Shown here one piece after another: positions 15,629 to 29,144 of a DNA stretch of 64,000 nucleotides. This stretch comes from Sphaerospermopsis torques-reginae ITEP-024. GTDB taxonomy: Bacteria; Cyanobacteriota; Cyanobacteriia; Cyanobacteriales; Nostocaceae. The stretch is taken from positions 1,302,001 through 1,366,000 of the forward strand of contig NZ_CP080598.1 in NCBI RefSeq assembly GCF_019598945.1. The letters run 5' to 3'. The notes under the pieces were generated by a model that was not told the origin of the DNA, did not search any database, and worked only from the letters and a program-made list of their open reading frames with translations. Position 1 is the stretch's first letter. Every line of letters begins with the position of its first letter. Both the position numbers and the translations under genes were made by a program.

Positions 15629-16237
15629 TTACCTGATTTTATCTAATGCAAGATTCAATTTTAAAACATTCATTCCAGGTTCACCAAATATACCCAAAAA
15701 ACGCCTATCTGTGTTTTGAGAAATTAAAATTTCTAGTTGCTGTGATTCAATTCCTCTTGCTTTAGCAATGCGTGAAATTTGCACCTTTGCACTTTCAGGA
15801 GTAATGTGAGGATCAAGACTAGAACCAGAAGTATAAACTAAATCAGCCGTTGGTTGAATTTCTGCTTTTCTTAGTTTATTAATTTCACCTTCATTACCAT
15901 TAATTCTTGCTAACAATGCGGGATTACTAGGAGCTAAATTACTAGCACCAGATACACCAGTTTTCAAAATTCCAGCTTCATCATTTTTCGGGTTTGTGGT
16001 GCTATAGTTAGTAGTGCTAGGACGACTCCAAAAATACTTTTCACTGGTAAAAGGTTGACCAATCAAAGCAGAACCAATCACCACACCTTGGGAATTTGTA
16101 ATTAAACTGCCATTTGCTTGAAAAGAAAAAGCAACCTGTCCTGAAATTAACATAAATAAGGGATAGATAAAGGTTGTTATCACCCATAAAACTAAAGTTG
16201 AACGAATAGCTTTACTAATTTGGTGTCTCTGACTCAT
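15629..16237 (-). CDS. kdpC: K+-transporting ATPase subunit KdpC, operon 1
   Basis: Small membrane-anchored subunit that stabilises the KdpA-KdpB complex and raises ATP affinity. One N-terminal membrane helix (STLVLWVITTFIYPLFMLI), then the periplasmic domain with GSALIGQPF, YFWSRPS, GASNLAPSNP, ADLVYTSGSSLDPHITPESA and RFLGIFGEPGMNVLKLNLAL, all family hallmarks. I chose the ATG at 16237 because GGAGAG lies ~9 nt before it; an in-frame start at 16258 would bury this ribosome-binding site. 202 aa. Followed by kdpD after 18 bp. Confidence 0.94.
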   Translation of the reverse strand: MSQRHQISKAIRSTLVLWVITTFIYPLFMLISGQVAFSFQANGSLITNSQGVVIGSALIGQPFTSEKYFWSRPSTTNYSTTNPKNDEAGILKTGVSGASNLAPSNPALLARINGNEGEINKLRKAEIQPTADLVYTSGSSLDPHITPESAKVQISRIAKARGIESQQLEILISQNTDRRFLGIFGEPGMNVLKLNLALDKIR

Positions 16238-16269
16238 ATTAAAATCTCTCCATTTCAAAAATATTAAAG

Positions 16270-16323: not shown

Positions 16324-16557
16324 TTAAAACCTCTCAGGTTGAAAAATCACAACAAACAAATAAACACAAAGACAGAGAGTAACAAGTCCTAATAAAGTAA
16401 TTGTGTAAGCAGAAAAACGTGATTCTGTTCCAGGTATCGCTGCTTGAACTGCTGGAGCTAATAATACATTAACGCAAAGCAGTAAAAACAAAATCAGAGG
16501 AAGACGATGACCTTTAGAAAATGCCATTTGTAAATATTCCATAATTCTAAAATCCAA
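16324..16557 (-). CDS. kdpF: Small Kdp membrane subunit (KdpF-type, cyanobacterial KdpG)
   Basis: A 77-residue protein with two hydrophobic segments. The C-terminal one ends CVYLFVVIFQPERF, matching the single-helix KdpF consensus (membrane helix then PERF). The extra N-terminal segment ends in PAVQAA and resembles a signal peptide or second helix; this is the form called KdpG in Anabaena kdp operons. KdpF stabilises the KdpABC complex. The gene sits 21 bp after kdpB and 86 bp before kdpC. Met6 and Met11 are possible alternative starts. Confidence 0.85.
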   Translation of the reverse strand: MDFRIMEYLQMAFSKGHRLPLILFLLLCVNVLLAPAVQAAIPGTESRFSAYTITLLGLVTLCLCVYLFVVIFQPERF

Positions 16558-20885: not shown

Positions 20886-21245
20886 TCAATTACATTGATT
20901 TTAGCTCTCCGTTCTGTCGCTGCTGGTGCATCTTGGTGGGATGAAATAGCAACTCAAGAAATTCGTTCTTCCTTGACTTTAAATTCTGCTCATTTATCTT
21001 CAGAACATAACGTTAAAACTCTCAATCCTCTCACCCATCGAGAAATAGAAATTCTCCAACTTTTAGCAGCAGGAAAAACTAATCATCAAATAGCGGAAAT
21101 TCTGTATATTACCACTGGTACTGTGAGGGTTCATGTTCATGCAATTTTACATAAATTGGGAGTTGACGATCGCCAGACTGCTGTTACCGTAGGTTTACAA
21201 AAACAGTTAATTAGTCCTCCAATAAGAATTCACGAGTCAAGATAA
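20886..21245 (+). pseudogene. C-terminal remnant of a NarL/FixJ-type response regulator
   Basis: The reading frame opens after a stop at 20883 and has no good ATG (TTG at 20895 only). It starts in the last helix of a receiver domain (LALRSVAAGASW) and continues into an intact LuxR-type HTH: LTHREIEILQLLAAGKTNHQIAEIL and TVRVHVHAILHKLGVDDR. The phospho-acceptor half of the receiver is missing, so this looks like a 5'-deleted gene. It lies between the two divergent kdp operons. An expressed HTH-only protein cannot be excluded. Confidence 0.75.
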
Positions 21246-23677: not shown

Positions 23678-25786
23678 ATGAACTCTGCTGCAACTACCCC
23701 AAGACCTAAATCTTCTCGTCCCCGTCCTAGCGATCGCCGTCTCAAACGTAAAAAAACACGGCGAATTAGTACCAAAGGACTCTACATCAGGGCAATTAGA
23801 GATGCCTTTGTTAAGTTACATCCCCAATATGCCATTAAAAATCCCATCATGTTTTTGGTGTGGTTGGGAACAATCATTACCCTAGCCGCCACAATTTATC
23901 CCCCCATATTTGGACCCGTCACCCAGAAAAACCCCCAGCTTTTCAACGGTTTAGTCACAATTATCTTATTTTTCACTGTGCTTTTTGCCAATTTCGCCGA
24001 AGCATTGGCACAAGGAAGAGGTAAAGCCCAAGCTGATGCTTTACGATCTACCCGTTCAGAAACCATCGCCAAAAAAATTGTCGTTGATGGCACAATCACA
24101 GAAATCCCTTCTACTGACCTTAAAAAAGGTGATACCGTCTACGTTGTTGCCGGTGATATCATCCCCGCAGATGGGGAAGTAATATTGGGTGTCGCTTCTG
24201 TTGATGAATCAGCCATTACCGGTGAATCTGCACCAGTCCTTAAAGAATCAGGTTCAGATGTTGCCAGTTCTGTTACTGGTGGTACGCGCATCATCTCCGA
24301 TGAGTTAATCATCCGTATTACTGCTGACCCCGGTAAAGGATTTATTGACCGGATGATCAACTTAGTAGAAGGGGCAGAACGCACTAAAACACCTAATGAA
24401 ATTGCTTTAACCATTTTGCTGTCAGTGCTGACCCTAGCCTTTTTATTTGTGGTCGCAACCCTGCCCGCCTTTGCCTATTATGTCAACAGTCCCGTTAGCG
24501 TTACCGTATTAATTGCCCTGTTGGTAGCACTTATCCCTACTACAATTGGCAGTTTACTTAGTGCTATTGGTATTGCAGGTATGGATAGAGTCGCCCAATT
24601 TAACATTATTGCTACTTCAGGACGGGCAGTGGAAGCCTGTGGAGATATCAATACTTTAGTTTTGGATAAAACAGGTACAATCACTCTGGGAAACCGATTA
24701 GCAGAAGCTTTTATCCCCATCAACGGTCACTCAATGGTGGAAATTGCTAATGTGGCTTTAGCAGCTAGTATCTTTGACGATACTCCAGAAGGTCGGTCTA
24801 TTGTCCGACTAGCAGAAAAATTTGGCGCAAAATTTGATGTAGACCGCAAACAAGCCCAAGGAATAGAATTTTCCGCCAAAACCCGCATGAGTGGTACTAA
24901 CTTTCCTGGTGGACATGAGGCGCGAAAAGGTGCGGTGGGAGCAATTAAAGGCTTTGTTCGTTCTCGCAATGGACGGGAAACCCCAGAATTAGATACTGCT
25001 TATGAGGAAGTTTCTCATCAAGGAGGTACGCCTTTAGCTGTTTGTCTCGATAATGAAATCTATGGGGTGATTTATCTCAAAGATATTGTTAAACCCGGTA
25101 TCCGCGAACGTTTTGAGCAACTGCGGCGCATGGGAGTGCGTACCGTGATGTTAACTGGAGATAACCGCATCACTGCCTATGTTATTGCTAAAGAAGCGGG
25201 AGTAGATGAATTTATCGCCGAAGCTACACCAGAAGATAAAATCAGCGTCATTCAAGGGGAACAAGCAGAAGGTAAATTGGTGGCCATGACAGGAGATGGA
25301 ACTAATGACGCTCCTGCTTTGGCACAGGCTAATGTTGGTGTAGCCATGAATACAGGGACTCAAGCTGCTAAGGAAGCTGCTAATATGGTGGATTTGGATT
25401 CTGATCCTACCAAACTTATTGATATCGTCAGTATTGGTAAACAATTATTGATTACTCGTGGGGCATTGACGACATTTTCCATTGCTAATGATATTGCTAA
25501 ATATTTTGCCATTATCCCGGTAATTTTTGCCGCTGCTAATTTACAAAGCTTGAATATTATGAAGTTAACCAGTGTTAATTCAGCGGTATTGTCGGCACTG
25601 ATTTATAATGCTTTGATTATTCCGGTTTTGATTCCTTTAGCATTGAAGGGTGTCAAATTTCGACCTTTGACTGCTAATCAACTTCTGCAACGCAATCTTT
25701 TTCTTTATGGCTTAGGTGGGGTGATTGCTCCATTTATTGCTATTAAATTCATAGATATGTTAATTACAGTTGTTGGTTTAGCTTAA
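23678..25786 (+). CDS. kdpB: K+-transporting P-type ATPase KdpB, operon 2
   Basis: Second KdpB with complete motifs: [24 protein letters not shown], phosphorylation site D330-K-T-G-T-I, KTRMSG, MLTGDN and [16 protein letters not shown] place the start at ATG 23678; the open frame extends upstream to a TTG at 23624, but that extension is encoded by tandem repeats and has no counterpart in the other KdpB. The basic, Pro/Arg-rich N-terminus (residues ~5-35) is longer than in copy 1. 702 aa. Confidence 0.96.
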
Positions 25787-25999
25787 TCGGTGACTGGTGA
25801 CTGGTGACTGTTGACTGGGGAAGAAAATTTTAGATTTTAGATTTTAGATTTTAGATTGGAATTGACAAAAACAATCCAAAATCCAAAATCCAAAATCCTT
25901 TCATTGAATTACCAATTACCAATTACCAATTACCAATTACCAATTACCAATTTAAAATCCAAAATCCAAAATCCAAAATCTAAAATCTAAAATTAAATT
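25787..25999. repeat. Block of four different STRRs in place of kdpF, operon 2
   Basis: In order: GGTGACT units (25789-25812), TTTTAGA units (25828-25855), AATCCAA units (25873-25899), ATTACCA units (25912-25950) and AATCCAA/AATCTAA units (25953-25993). No open frame for the small PERF-ending subunit remains between kdpB and kdpC. Confidence 0.9.
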
Positions 26000-26602
26000 A
26001 TGGTGTTGATTAGAGAAACTATCCGTGCTATGCGGATGATTTTATTACTTTGGTTGTTAACAGCAATTATTTATCCTTTGGCAATATTAGGGTTTGGTCA
26101 GTTGGCATTCCCTTCTTCAGCTAATGGTAGTATTGTTTTAAATATAGATGCTCAAGCCATAGGTTCATCTTTGATTGGTCAAGTTTTTACATCAGATAAA
26201 TATTTTCACACCCGTCCCAGTGCGGTAAGATATAGTCAAGGTAGCAAAGCCAGACCAACTGGTATATCTGGCGGTAGTAATCTTGCTCCTAGTAATTCAG
26301 AACTAACTAATAGAATTATTAAAGAAGCAACTCAATTTGAAGATGAGAATATACAACCAGTAGCTGATTTAATTTACACCTCTGGTTCTGGTTTAGACCC
26401 CCATATTTCTTTGAAAGCCACACGACAACAGTTAACAAGAGTCACACAGGCGCGGGGTATCAAAGAATCTGATATCATCCCTTTAATTAATAAGTATACT
26501 GATGGCAGATTTTTGGGTATTTTTGGTGAACCAGGAGTTAATGTTTTACGTTTAAATTATGCTCTTGATCTACAAGAAATCAACCTTCAGCAAAATCAAT
26601 AA
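26000..26602 (+). CDS. kdpC: K+-transporting ATPase subunit KdpC, operon 2
   Basis: Second KdpC, 200 aa. N-terminal membrane helix MILLLWLLTAIIYPLAILGFG, then GSSLIGQVF, YFHTRPSAV, GGSNLAPSN, ADLIYTSGSGLDPHIS and RFLGIFGEPGVNVLRLNYAL. All family motifs are present. It follows kdpB after a 213-bp block of tandem repeats and is the last intact gene of the operon; a kdpD scrap lies ~470 bp further on. Confidence 0.94.
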   Translation: MVLIRETIRAMRMILLLWLLTAIIYPLAILGFGQLAFPSSANGSIVLNIDAQAIGSSLIGQVFTSDKYFHTRPSAVRYSQGSKARPTGISGGSNLAPSNSELTNRIIKEATQFEDENIQPVADLIYTSGSGLDPHISLKATRQQLTRVTQARGIKESDIIPLINKYTDGRFLGIFGEPGVNVLRLNYALDLQEINLQQNQ

Positions 26603-26656
26603 TTAGTTAGGGGTTGCTGAGAAAGTTTTGTCGTGAAGGCATAGGAGTCAGGAGTG

Positions 26657-26762
<106 letters not shown>

Positions 26763-26812
26763 GAGATTTCAAAATTTATTTTCCATCTCTCAAACCCAAC
26801 AAAAGTGTAAGG

Positions 26813-26838
26813 CTTCGCCGTGAGCGTCAGCCGAACGG
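26813..26838. repeat. 26-bp insertion of small dispersed repeat type
   Basis: The related copy at 3466-3776 reads ...GTGCAAGG-TTTTTGAGGC... without interruption, whereas here 26 GC-rich bases (starting CTTCGCCGTGAGCG) separate AAGG from TTTTTGAGG, with GG repeated at both edges. Size and composition fit the small dispersed repeats of Nostoc. Confidence 0.65.
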
Positions 26839-27075
26839 TTTTTGAGGCACAAGACGCTATATCTTTGCACCTACTTTCCTGTTTATCCACCTCCAACCTT
26901 TGATTTATCTGGGTTTTGGGTTTTTTCAGCAAACCCTAGTTATCAGTTATCAGTTGCAAAAGGCACTCATGCAAAAGGCACTCATGCAAAAGTTCAACGG
27001 CGAATATAATTCGCTACTACATAATCAAAGTCCACCGGAGTGGACTTGATGAAAGAACCCGCGCAGCAGGGTTTC

Positions 27076-27207
27076 GTCTGTATAGCCGCGATTTATAATC
27101 TCATTGGTGAGAGTAGGCGTTATCGTTGGGAAATTCTGCTGAAAGGTTCTTTAATTCAAAAGTTGGTGGGTTTGCTCAAAAATATTGATTTACATATTAT
27201 TGCTATA
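27076..27207 (+). pseudogene. kdpD remnant (end of the universal-stress domain)
   Basis: The open stretch ending HIIA reads NLIGESRRYRW...LLKGSLIQKLVGLL...IDLHIIA and aligns with the last ~45 residues of the minus-strand KdpD (QIVIGESQQPRWKRFIKGSF...DKKIDLHIIA). The rest of kdpD is absent and the frame runs on to an unrelated end. It lies downstream of kdpC of operon 2, in the same relative place that intact kdpD has in operon 1, so it appears to be the relic of a second kdpD. Confidence 0.75.
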
Positions 27208-27228
27208 GGACTCATATTTGATTTTTGA

Positions 27229-27977
27229 AAAAAAATCCGTACACCTAAATTTTCTGAAACCCTTTTGCCTATTACCTTTTGCGTTTTATCTGACTACGCA
27301 AACAATTTCAAATATCAAATATTATTCCTATACTGGGAAAAATTAAAAATTTAAAAGTCAGGAGTCAGTCGTAGGGGCAACCTCCTGTGGTTGCCCTCTT
27401 GAGTAGAAGTCAGGAGTCAGGAATCAGAATATAGCGTTTCCCAGTCTAATGAAGTACACACCAATTTATTCACTGTTCCGTGTTAAGAGTTCCCTGTTCC
27501 CTAAAACGAAAAAACTTTGTACCTCACTAGCATGGGAATGGCTATAATTGTTAAGTACCTAGGGGTTGCTGAGAAAGTCTTGTCGTGATGACAGGTGACA
27601 GGTGACAGTTTCAAGAGTTGGATAGGAACGATTTTTCCTTTGAGTAGGAATTAAATGCAAGGTTTTTAAGTTTCCACCCCGTAAAAGCTTGCACTTTTTG
27701 AAAGTCAAAATAGCTAAAAACCTTTACCTGTAAAGTTTTCGGATTTATTCAGCAAGCCCTAAGTACCTAAGCAAAATTAAGTCAACATATTGAGTGAAAA
27801 CAAAAATGTCTGTTTTCCTTAATTCCTATTCCCTGATCATTCCACTGCCAAATATAAAATTTATTTTGCACGACTACTTAAATCAGGACTTAACAGATTC
27901 ACGATTTTATAAATGATTTTCATCAAGGTAACATTTAAGTTAAACTATCTGTTGCAATCACACCAAAATCTCTGTAA
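27229..27977. other. Gene-free repeat-rich stretch before anmK
   Basis: Contains scattered GGAGTCA and GGTGACA heptamers and the 200-bp repeat at 27561-27760. No gene seen. Confidence 0.6.
27561..27760 (+). mobile_element. MITE-like repeat family A, copy B, with perfect 8-bp target duplication
   Basis: Begins AGGGGTTGCTGAGAAAG and ends TTCAGCAAGCCCT. The 8 bp AAGTACCT occur on both sides (27553-27560 and 27761-27768). 200 bp, non-coding. The interior is diverged from the other copies. Confidence 0.8.
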
Positions 27978-29144
27978 ATGCACCCGACTCGTGTTGTAGG
28001 TTTAATGAGTGGCACATCTGTGGATGGGATAGATGCTGCCTTGGTAGAAATTGTTGGTACAGATTTGAATCTCAAAGTTGAATTATTAGCCGGGGAAACC
28101 TATCCTTACCCTGCTGAACTAAGAGAAAAAATATTGGCTATCTGTGCCGGTGCGTCTATCTCAATAGCAGAACTGGCAGCCATAGATGATGCGATCGCTG
28201 TCGTTTTTGCCCAGGCTGTCCAAAATATTCAAGTCGGTTATCCCCCAGCCTCCCTTATCGGTTCTCACGGTCAAACTGTTTACCACCGACCACCTCAGCA
28301 GCAATCTCTCGGTTACAGTTTGCAACTTGGTCGGGGTGCTTTAATTTCTCGCCTGACTGGTATTACTACTATTAGTAATTTCCGTGTAGCTGATATTGCT
28401 GTTGGTGGTCATGGTGCGCCTCTTGTTCCTAGAGTTGATGCCTATTTACTCAGTCATCCCCAAGAAGCACGTTGTATTCAAAATATAGGTGGTATTGGTA
28501 ATGTAACTTATCTACCTCCCCGGCGTGATGACTGGCTGGCTCAAATTCGTGGTTGGGATACTGGTCCTGGAAATAGTCTCTTGGATTTGGCTGTACAATA
28601 CTTTACTAATGGTGATAAAAGTTACGATGAAAATGGTAGTTGGGCTGCTAGTGGTAGTCCCTGCTATCCATTGGTAGAAAAATGGCTCAGTCAAGATTAT
28701 TTTCGTTTACCACCCCCTAAATCTACTGGTCGGGAGTTATTTGGTGTAACTTATCTACATCAGTGTTTACAGGACTGCCAAGCCTACCAACTTAGTCCCG
28801 CAGATGTGTTGGCAACAATTACAGAACTCACAGCTGCTTCGATTGTTAATAGTTACCGTGCTTTTTTACCGCAAATGCCAGAACGGGTATTATTATGTGG
28901 GGGCGGTAGTCAGAATCTTTACTTAAAACACAGGTTAGAGTTATTGTTGAGATCAGTAAAAGTTTTAACTACAGATGAAGTCGGTTTAAGTGCAACGTTT
29001 AAAGAAGCGATCGCTTTCGCTGTTTTAGCCTACTGGAGACAGTTAGGTCTTTCTGGTAATTTACGCGTTGCAACTGGAGCAGATCAAGAAGTGGTTTTAG
29101 GAGAAATACATCAGGTGAGAGCTTGTCCTAAGTTGACAATTTAA
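27978..29144 (+). CDS. anmK: Anhydro-N-acetylmuramic acid kinase
   Basis: Phosphorylates and opens 1,6-anhydro-MurNAc released during peptidoglycan turnover, giving MurNAc-6-phosphate. The family signature [20 protein letters not shown] opens the protein. [10 protein letters not shown] (~95-104), [21 protein letters not shown], the phosphate loop [25 protein letters not shown] and LLCGGGSQN complete it. 388 aa, normal length. ATG start. No recycling partner genes adjoin it. Confidence 0.96.

Follow-up and report, generated by a model that had tools for sequence, protein, structure and literature searches.

A relic of a second kdpD in Sphaerospermopsis torques-reginae ITEP-024 and recurrent loss of kdpD2 in Nostocaceae

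Two kdp operons and one intact kdpD

The DNA analysed here is a stretch of 64,000 nucleotides from Sphaerospermopsis torques-reginae ITEP-024, referred to as the window. It contains two divergent kdp operons, and an intact kdpD closes operon 1 only. On the minus strand, operon 1 reads kdpA1-B1-(77-residue ORF with a KdpF domain)-C1-D1. On the plus strand, operon 2 reads kdpA2-B2-C2. Note that the names kdpA and kdpB, in the window, rest on matches to other kdpA and kdpB copies. The features are listed in Table 1. According to Pfam, KdpD1 consists of domains PF02702 and PF00582, with no histidine kinase domain; the sole other match, ResIII, is below the cut-off. The host genome is a single contig of 5.25 Mb and a search of all of it recovered one full-length KdpD, which is KdpD1. 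The second match (E 1.3e-4) is the stretch considered below. The third, elsewhere in the genome, is weak and has 24% identity. A diadenylate cyclase domain is also encoded in the genome (family match 1.1e-37). Both window KdpBs, KdpB1 and KdpB2, keep the motif TGES, the serine of which we take to be S162 of E. coli KdpB.

Some smaller features accompany the operons. The 77-residue ORF, between kdpB1 and kdpC1, is at 16324-16557 on the minus strand and has its KdpF domain at the ORF end (Pfam 5.2e-11). The kdpB2-kdpC2 gap (25787-25999) contains short repeats, and the operon 1 KdpF ORF has no good match there, either in the window or in L034, the equivalent locus of the sister species described below. 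Between the divergent operons, a 116-residue protein is encoded at 20895-21245 on the plus strand. It has a LuxR-type DNA-binding domain (Pfam GerE 6.2e-19) and could be a regulator of one or both kdp operons.

Table 1. Positions in the window of the kdpD2 relic, the sequences that interrupt or replace kdpD2, and nearby or related genes
Feature	Position	Strand	Remarks
kdpD1, intact short KdpD, 373 residues	14489..15610	-	Pfam KdpD 2.3e-95, Usp 6.2e-09
kdpC1	15629..16258	-	91% identical over 209 residues to the sister's copy beside kdpD1
kdpC2, last intact gene of operon 2	26000..26602	+	Pfam KdpC 2.4e-62; 90% DNA identity to sister locus L034 8001-8603
Interspersed repeats in place of lost 5' kdpD2	26606..27100	.	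80 own-genome matches to 26600-27560, self included
kdpD2 relic, main piece	27103..27205	+	Codons 322-355 plus base 1 of codon 356 (numbering of the 359-codon sister kdpD2); end of Usp region
MITE-like insertion, splits off last kdpD2 codons	27206..27330	.	125 bases; TA at 27204-27205 and 27331-27332; inverted ends
kdpD2 relic, last codons and stop	27333..27346	+	Beyond the insertion; matches the sister kdpD2 end and bases after it
anmK, downstream neighbour common to window and sister, fixes the position	27978..29144	+	Pfam AnmK 8.5e-108; 93-94% identical in DNA to the gene that follows kdpD2 in L034

The 3' end of kdpD2 lies between kdpC2 and anmK

The kdpC2-anmK gap is 1375 bases (26603-27977). 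The earlier note had recognised the end of a KdpD in this gap. We aligned the gap with KdpD1, locally and in six frames. One plus-strand frame scored 99, compared to 26-31 in the other five. Among 1000 dinucleotide-preserving shuffles of the gap, the mean score was 35.8, the maximum was 53, and none reached 99. Hence, the similarity is real and a chance match to a Usp-like sequence is ruled out. Note that the score of 99 takes in an upstream stretch, with two stops and repeat sequence, that we do not count as kdpD.

An intact counterpart is present in Sphaerospermopsis kisseleviana NIES-73, the sole other Sphaerospermopsis genome in our comparison set. Here, the gene order is kdpA2-B2-C2-D2-anmK. 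The kdpD2 gene (359 residues, L034 8622-9701) starts 21 bases behind kdpC2 and encodes KdpD and Usp Pfam domains, without a histidine kinase domain. The relic tail is 89% identical, at the protein level, to residues 321-357 of this KdpD2 (37 residues, E 4.8e-14). At the DNA level, 27103-27202 matches L034 9585-9684 at 96 of 100 bases. Thus, the proposal that both operons once ended in kdpD, the second copy being mostly lost from its place behind kdpC2, is borne out by an intact gene in that very place, and by similarity that survives scoring. Since the sister keeps the intact gene, the relic is an unusually well resolved pseudogene.

The borders differ somewhat from those first given. Within the interval originally marked (27076-27207), kdpD sequence occupies 27103-27205, and resumes at 27333-27346 past an insertion; 27076-27100 is instead interspersed repeat. 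On the 5' side, homology to kdpD2 ends at 27103 (codon 322), and homology of the kdpC2 region ends just past the kdpC2 stop codon. We rule out kdpD sequence before 27103, since the stretch upstream consists of stops and repeats. Hence, the first ~321 of 359 codons are missing and a 38-codon tail is left. With these codons gone, the end split by the insertion, and an open frame lacking any Pfam match, the relic cannot encode KdpD. The relic differs from the sister at 4 of 100 bases, and the identity between window and sister is 90% for kdpC2, 93% for kdpA2 and kdpB2, and 93-94% for anmK. The relic is thus not more diverged than its neighbours, on a comparison that, at 100 bases, is too short for dating. 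We conclude that the stretch is almost certainly a pseudogene fragment, the 3' end of the kdpD2 that once closed operon 2.

Because the tail sits among repeats, it might be a partial duplicate of the kdpD1 end, brought there by those repeats, rather than a remnant of a resident gene. We give this next to no credence: identity is 89% to the sister KdpD2 and 38% to the host's own KdpD1 (in an alignment that is partly repeat), and the DNA past the insertion is the sister's kdpD2 3' flank, followed in both species by anmK. It is also very improbable that the 62-residue open frame at 27040-27228 encodes a functional small protein derived from the Usp tail. The frame is open, and several relatives likewise retain a 3' tail, but it starts in a repeat, ends in the inserted element and has no Pfam domain. 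Moreover, the homologous tails have different 5' ends, and some, those in G108, G133 and G097, carry frameshifts or stops. The same differences led us to reject the tail as a conserved mini-gene.

Other signals were also sought. An Rfam scan of 25700-28100 gave no RNA family match at the gathering threshold. There is no support for a promoter or terminator retained in the tail, since 5 promoter-like sites (shuffle mean 4.0) and 1 terminator-like site (shuffle mean 1.3) were counted. One promoter-like site overlaps the relic end.

An inserted element and repeats surround the relic

The insertion that splits the end of the pseudogene has the ends TATAGGA and TCCTATA, spanning 27204-27332. The sister has uninterrupted sequence here; aligned to it, the element stands out as a clean insertion, and kdpD2 codons resume at 27333. 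Copies elsewhere in the genome have, at best, 93%, 83% and 81% identity. In total, the genome search gave 28 matches, including the element itself, and some of these are inverted ends of one copy. With its inverted ends, TA on both sides and multiple copies, this short element resembles TA-targeting MITEs, a class we take to be of the IS630/Tc1-mariner type. The likeness is one of structure.

That the tail lies amid repeats, as had been remarked before, is confirmed by the own-genome matches in Table 1. The repeat at 26999-27100, which takes in 27076-27100, has an 86% identical copy elsewhere in the genome. Near 26943-26998, no copy was found in the loci compared for repeat borders. A further repeat (27560-27763, borders by eye) lies between the kdpD2 tail and anmK, and its ends resemble those of the element at ~26609-26940.

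These borders point to two events. A deletion or replacement took out everything between the kdpC2 stop codon and about codon 321, where interspersed repeats are found today. The TA-flanked MITE-like element also entered the last kdpD2 codons, either before or after that event. Loss of kdpD2 would have been tolerable if the surviving short KdpD1 acts in trans on both pumps.

Most Nostocaceae with two kdpC genes have one kdpD

We searched 217 Nostocaceae genomes with KdpD1, KdpC2, KdpD2 and KdpC1. KdpD presence was called at E 1e-10 and type was assigned by score; D1 comprises the 71 top listed KdpD1 matches and D2 the 124 top listed KdpD2 matches (123 genomes). Hence, the labels D1/D2 and C1/C2 apply among the matches listed only. 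Note also that two or more matches in a genome may be pieces of one gene.

The earlier note had suggested looking for intact kdpD at this position in relatives. Of 88 genomes that list both kdpC2 and kdpD2, 82 have the kdpD2-type gene shortly after kdpC2; in the other 6, the two are not within 6 kb on one strand. Among the matches listed, we looked for any kdpD that follows a kdpC on its strand at a distance of at most 6 kb. This gave 82 genomes with a kdpC2-kdpD2 pair, 22 with a kdpC1-kdpD1 pair and none with a crossed pair. The 22 are from 42 genomes that list both kdpC1 and kdpD1. In the other 20, the two genes are not within 6 kb on one strand, being on one contig in 11 cases (G014, G015, G020, G049, G058, G062, G064, G067, G091, G171 and G211) and on different contigs in 9. 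Judging by the 11 cases, kdpD1 has often become separated from an operon that itself persists. Behind kdpC1, two genomes, G039 and G027, have KdpD-like genes (L104 838-1977 and L102 2825-3628) that are only 57-61% identical to either type, in neither D list, and possibly represent a third KdpD lineage.

Exactly two KdpC matches were found in 166 genomes, of which 132 have one KdpD match; another 32 have two or three of them, and 2 lack any. For the 40 genomes with one KdpC match, the equivalent numbers are 22 with one KdpD, 1 with two and 17 with none. No KdpD match was detected in 21 of 217 genomes; these include the 17 and the 2 just mentioned. One of the 21, outside the matches listed, we infer to be G215. 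Among the matches listed, the 174 genomes with at least two KdpC divide into 107 with D2-type only, 47 with D1-type only, 8 with both and 12 with neither. Both single-type outcomes occur within genera g4, g32, g38 and g53. A single KdpD is thus not the upper limit, as 32 of 166 genomes have more matches and 8 of 174 list D1 together with D2, nor is it an absolute requirement, as 21 of 217 have no match.

The genomes without KdpD raise the idea that losses are neutral decay, without sharing. Here, two KdpDs would be redundant, either could go, and so could the last. This is an unlikely account, though one to be taken seriously. Of the 166 genomes with two KdpC matches, no more than 2 have no KdpD match, against 132 with one, and of the 2, G096 is listed as 38% contaminated. 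Furthermore, kdpD1 outlives its own operon in ten genomes, as described below.

Other kdpD2 relics and their retained 3' ends

In 62 loci with no intact kdpD2 following kdpC2, we scanned the sequence after kdpC2 for up to 3 kb. These are from 50 D1-only genomes (window included), 6 without a listed KdpD, and 6 more. In the last group, the G093 contig ends after ~150 bases and G201 has D2 elsewhere. Pieces of kdpD2 were found in 13 loci, in the window and 12 other genomes. Nine copies are truncated (window, G077, G097, G108, G112, G115, G132, G133 and G147) and four have most of kdpD2 present but broken (G090, G158, G212 and G213, the last also cut by the contig end). The other 49 loci gave no kdpD2 match up to 3 kb behind kdpC2. 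In control scans, all five intact kdpD2 loci tested were recovered and reversed sequences gave no match. In G212 (L087) and G213 (L088), where kdpD2 behind kdpC2 is degraded, full-length KdpD is absent among the matches listed. For kdpD1, we examined the sequence following kdpC1 in 20 loci that have no listed kdpD1 (19 of 97 D2-only genomes and G213) and found no relic; 18 gave no match and two, in G027 and G039, have the divergent KdpD-like gene noted above. Compared with the earlier note, the new points are the insertion at the relic end, the revised borders, the intact gene of the sister, and the repeated loss of kdpD2 and retention of one kdpD of two in the family.

All nine truncated copies retain 3' sequence and none retains kinase-domain residues 29-153. 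Matches start at residues ~154, 253, 263-265, 292, 313, 321 and 323. G077 is an exception in that residues 6-28 are kept too. For G097 and G133 the scored match ends before the last residues, and the KdpD1 query extends further in G097. No 5' fragment without a 3' part was found in the loci scanned. When 22 intact KdpD2s were used as test cases, pieces of 40-60 residues from the N-terminus were matched with median E-values no higher than those for tails of equal length. Hence, the 3' bias is not a detection effect. An 11-residue gap is common to G108, G133 and G115, the truncations of which probably derive from one ancestor, so that independent truncations number fewer than nine.

The isolated KdpD N-terminal domain still phosphorylates KdpB in vitro, according to a passage of PMC11018627. 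Hence, if a 5' fragment survived, it could inhibit the pump in an unregulated manner, which suggests that deletions sparing this domain might be selected against. Alternatively, and more simply, the 3' end may be retained because the end of the operon transcript, or the promoter of the neighbour, is kept.

Changes in kdpD state on KdpC2 trees

The kdpD states were mapped to two KdpC2 trees. The tree of 81 rows requires at least 14 changes in the state 'intact kdpD2 behind kdpC2', and 12 of these are forced by well-supported branches. The same tree provides 12 independent pairs differing in kdpD2. On average, kdpD1 is opposite in 8.3, the same in 0.1 and without difference in 3.6. The median p-value is 0.008 (range 0.002-0.07), for rows chosen partly on kdpD state, which favours the paired test. 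The tree of 149 rows includes every genome with a listed kdpC2, and was built by a quick method with fewer supported branches. It yields 7 pairs, with kdpD1 opposite in 3.6, the same in 0.0 and undecided in 3.4; here, G112 and G115 are counted as neither type, though their E-values suggest D1-type. The direction is the same, though without significance (median p 0.125). For the kdpD1 state, we count 17 changes on the 81-row tree and 19 on the 149-row tree. Such counts do not separate gain from loss. However, the truncated and broken kdpD2 relics mean that at least part of the state changes are losses.

Whole kdp operons, some already without kdpD, could also have been transferred between genomes, and this might explain the one-of-two pattern more than repeated loss in place. 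The strict type-matching of close kdpC and kdpD neighbours, among the matches listed, fits such transfers, and movement of operon 1 could explain part of the 17 or 19 kdpD1 changes. We nevertheless consider this quite unlikely as the main explanation, since 13 genomes carry kdpD2 in truncated or broken form, which shows that the gene was lost where it stood, and gene order around kdpD2 is common to window and sister.

One short KdpD may serve two pumps

In eleven genomes, the only KdpC is of type 2 and the KdpD is of the D1 type. In ten of these there is no kdpA1, kdpB1 or kdpC1 around kdpD1 (6 kb on each side; less in G052, because of a contig end). Each of the ten has one KdpB match (E 1e-100), located near kdpC2, and the 3 kb following kdpC2 contain no kdpD2 in any of them. 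All ten lie within one clade of the KdpC2 tree and may represent one event. The eleventh genome, G010, still has kdpA1-B1. In G097, fragments of kdpB1 and kdpC1 lie beside an intact kdpD1, and kdpD2 is a relic. Judged from gene content, the genomes with a stray kdpD1 are most simply explained by KdpD1 acting on the pump of operon 2.

Biochemical work makes such an action plausible. As described in parts of PMC11018627, E. coli KdpB is phosphorylated at S162, and the short KdpD of Deinococcus geothermalis (KdpD and Usp, no histidine kinase) is a c-di-AMP-stimulated serine kinase that phosphorylates KdpB; in related systems, short KdpD is a serine kinase that inhibits KdpB. Hence, one copy could serve two KdpBs. 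KdpD1 and the sister KdpD2 have the same two domains, and no histidine kinase, as this protein and the truncated kdpD described for Deinococcus-Thermus and cyanobacteria in sections of PMC5716572. Both window KdpBs also keep TGES. Unlike in the D. geothermalis case, the second kdpD is only a 38-codon tail, and the system is known here from sequence. From genome patterns, and work with Deinococcus and E. coli proteins, we lean towards KdpD1 acting in trans on both pumps.

According to PMC5716572, two kdp operons are present in cyanobacteria, one of them responsive to K+ limitation, high osmolarity or desiccation. The account of Anabaena given there (citing Ballal and Apte 2005) has two operons and a truncated kdpD, as in the window, and its passages on these genes mention neither relics nor alternative retention. 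Our searches, which covered open-licence papers, gave no title or opening of an abstract on kdpD loss in cyanobacteria, and no account of one-of-two kdpD retention; PMC4369082 does not mention kdp, and kdpD appears in PMC5986932 only in the reference list.

By itself, the relic is an ordinary pseudogene. The recurrent retention of one kdpD of two, of which it is a snapshot, is the more interesting part: two potassium pumps and one regulator gene left. In one clade, kdpD1 persists although its own operon is gone, and presumably acts on the other pump. A broader model would be that Nostocaceae with two Kdp pumps share one short KdpD, that the operon keeping it has been settled many times, and that selection passes only deletions that remove the kinase first. 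We put this forward tentatively, as a possibility that may well not hold in full. The testable claims it raises are that short KdpD works in trans on either KdpB, and that a kinase domain without Usp is harmful.

Finally, TGES is present in 19 of 21 KdpB loci (17 genomes). One partial locus is without the region. The other exception is the second KdpB of G010, a divergent protein encoded near kdpC2 (L177) that is 61% identical to KdpB1 and reads TGET for TGES.
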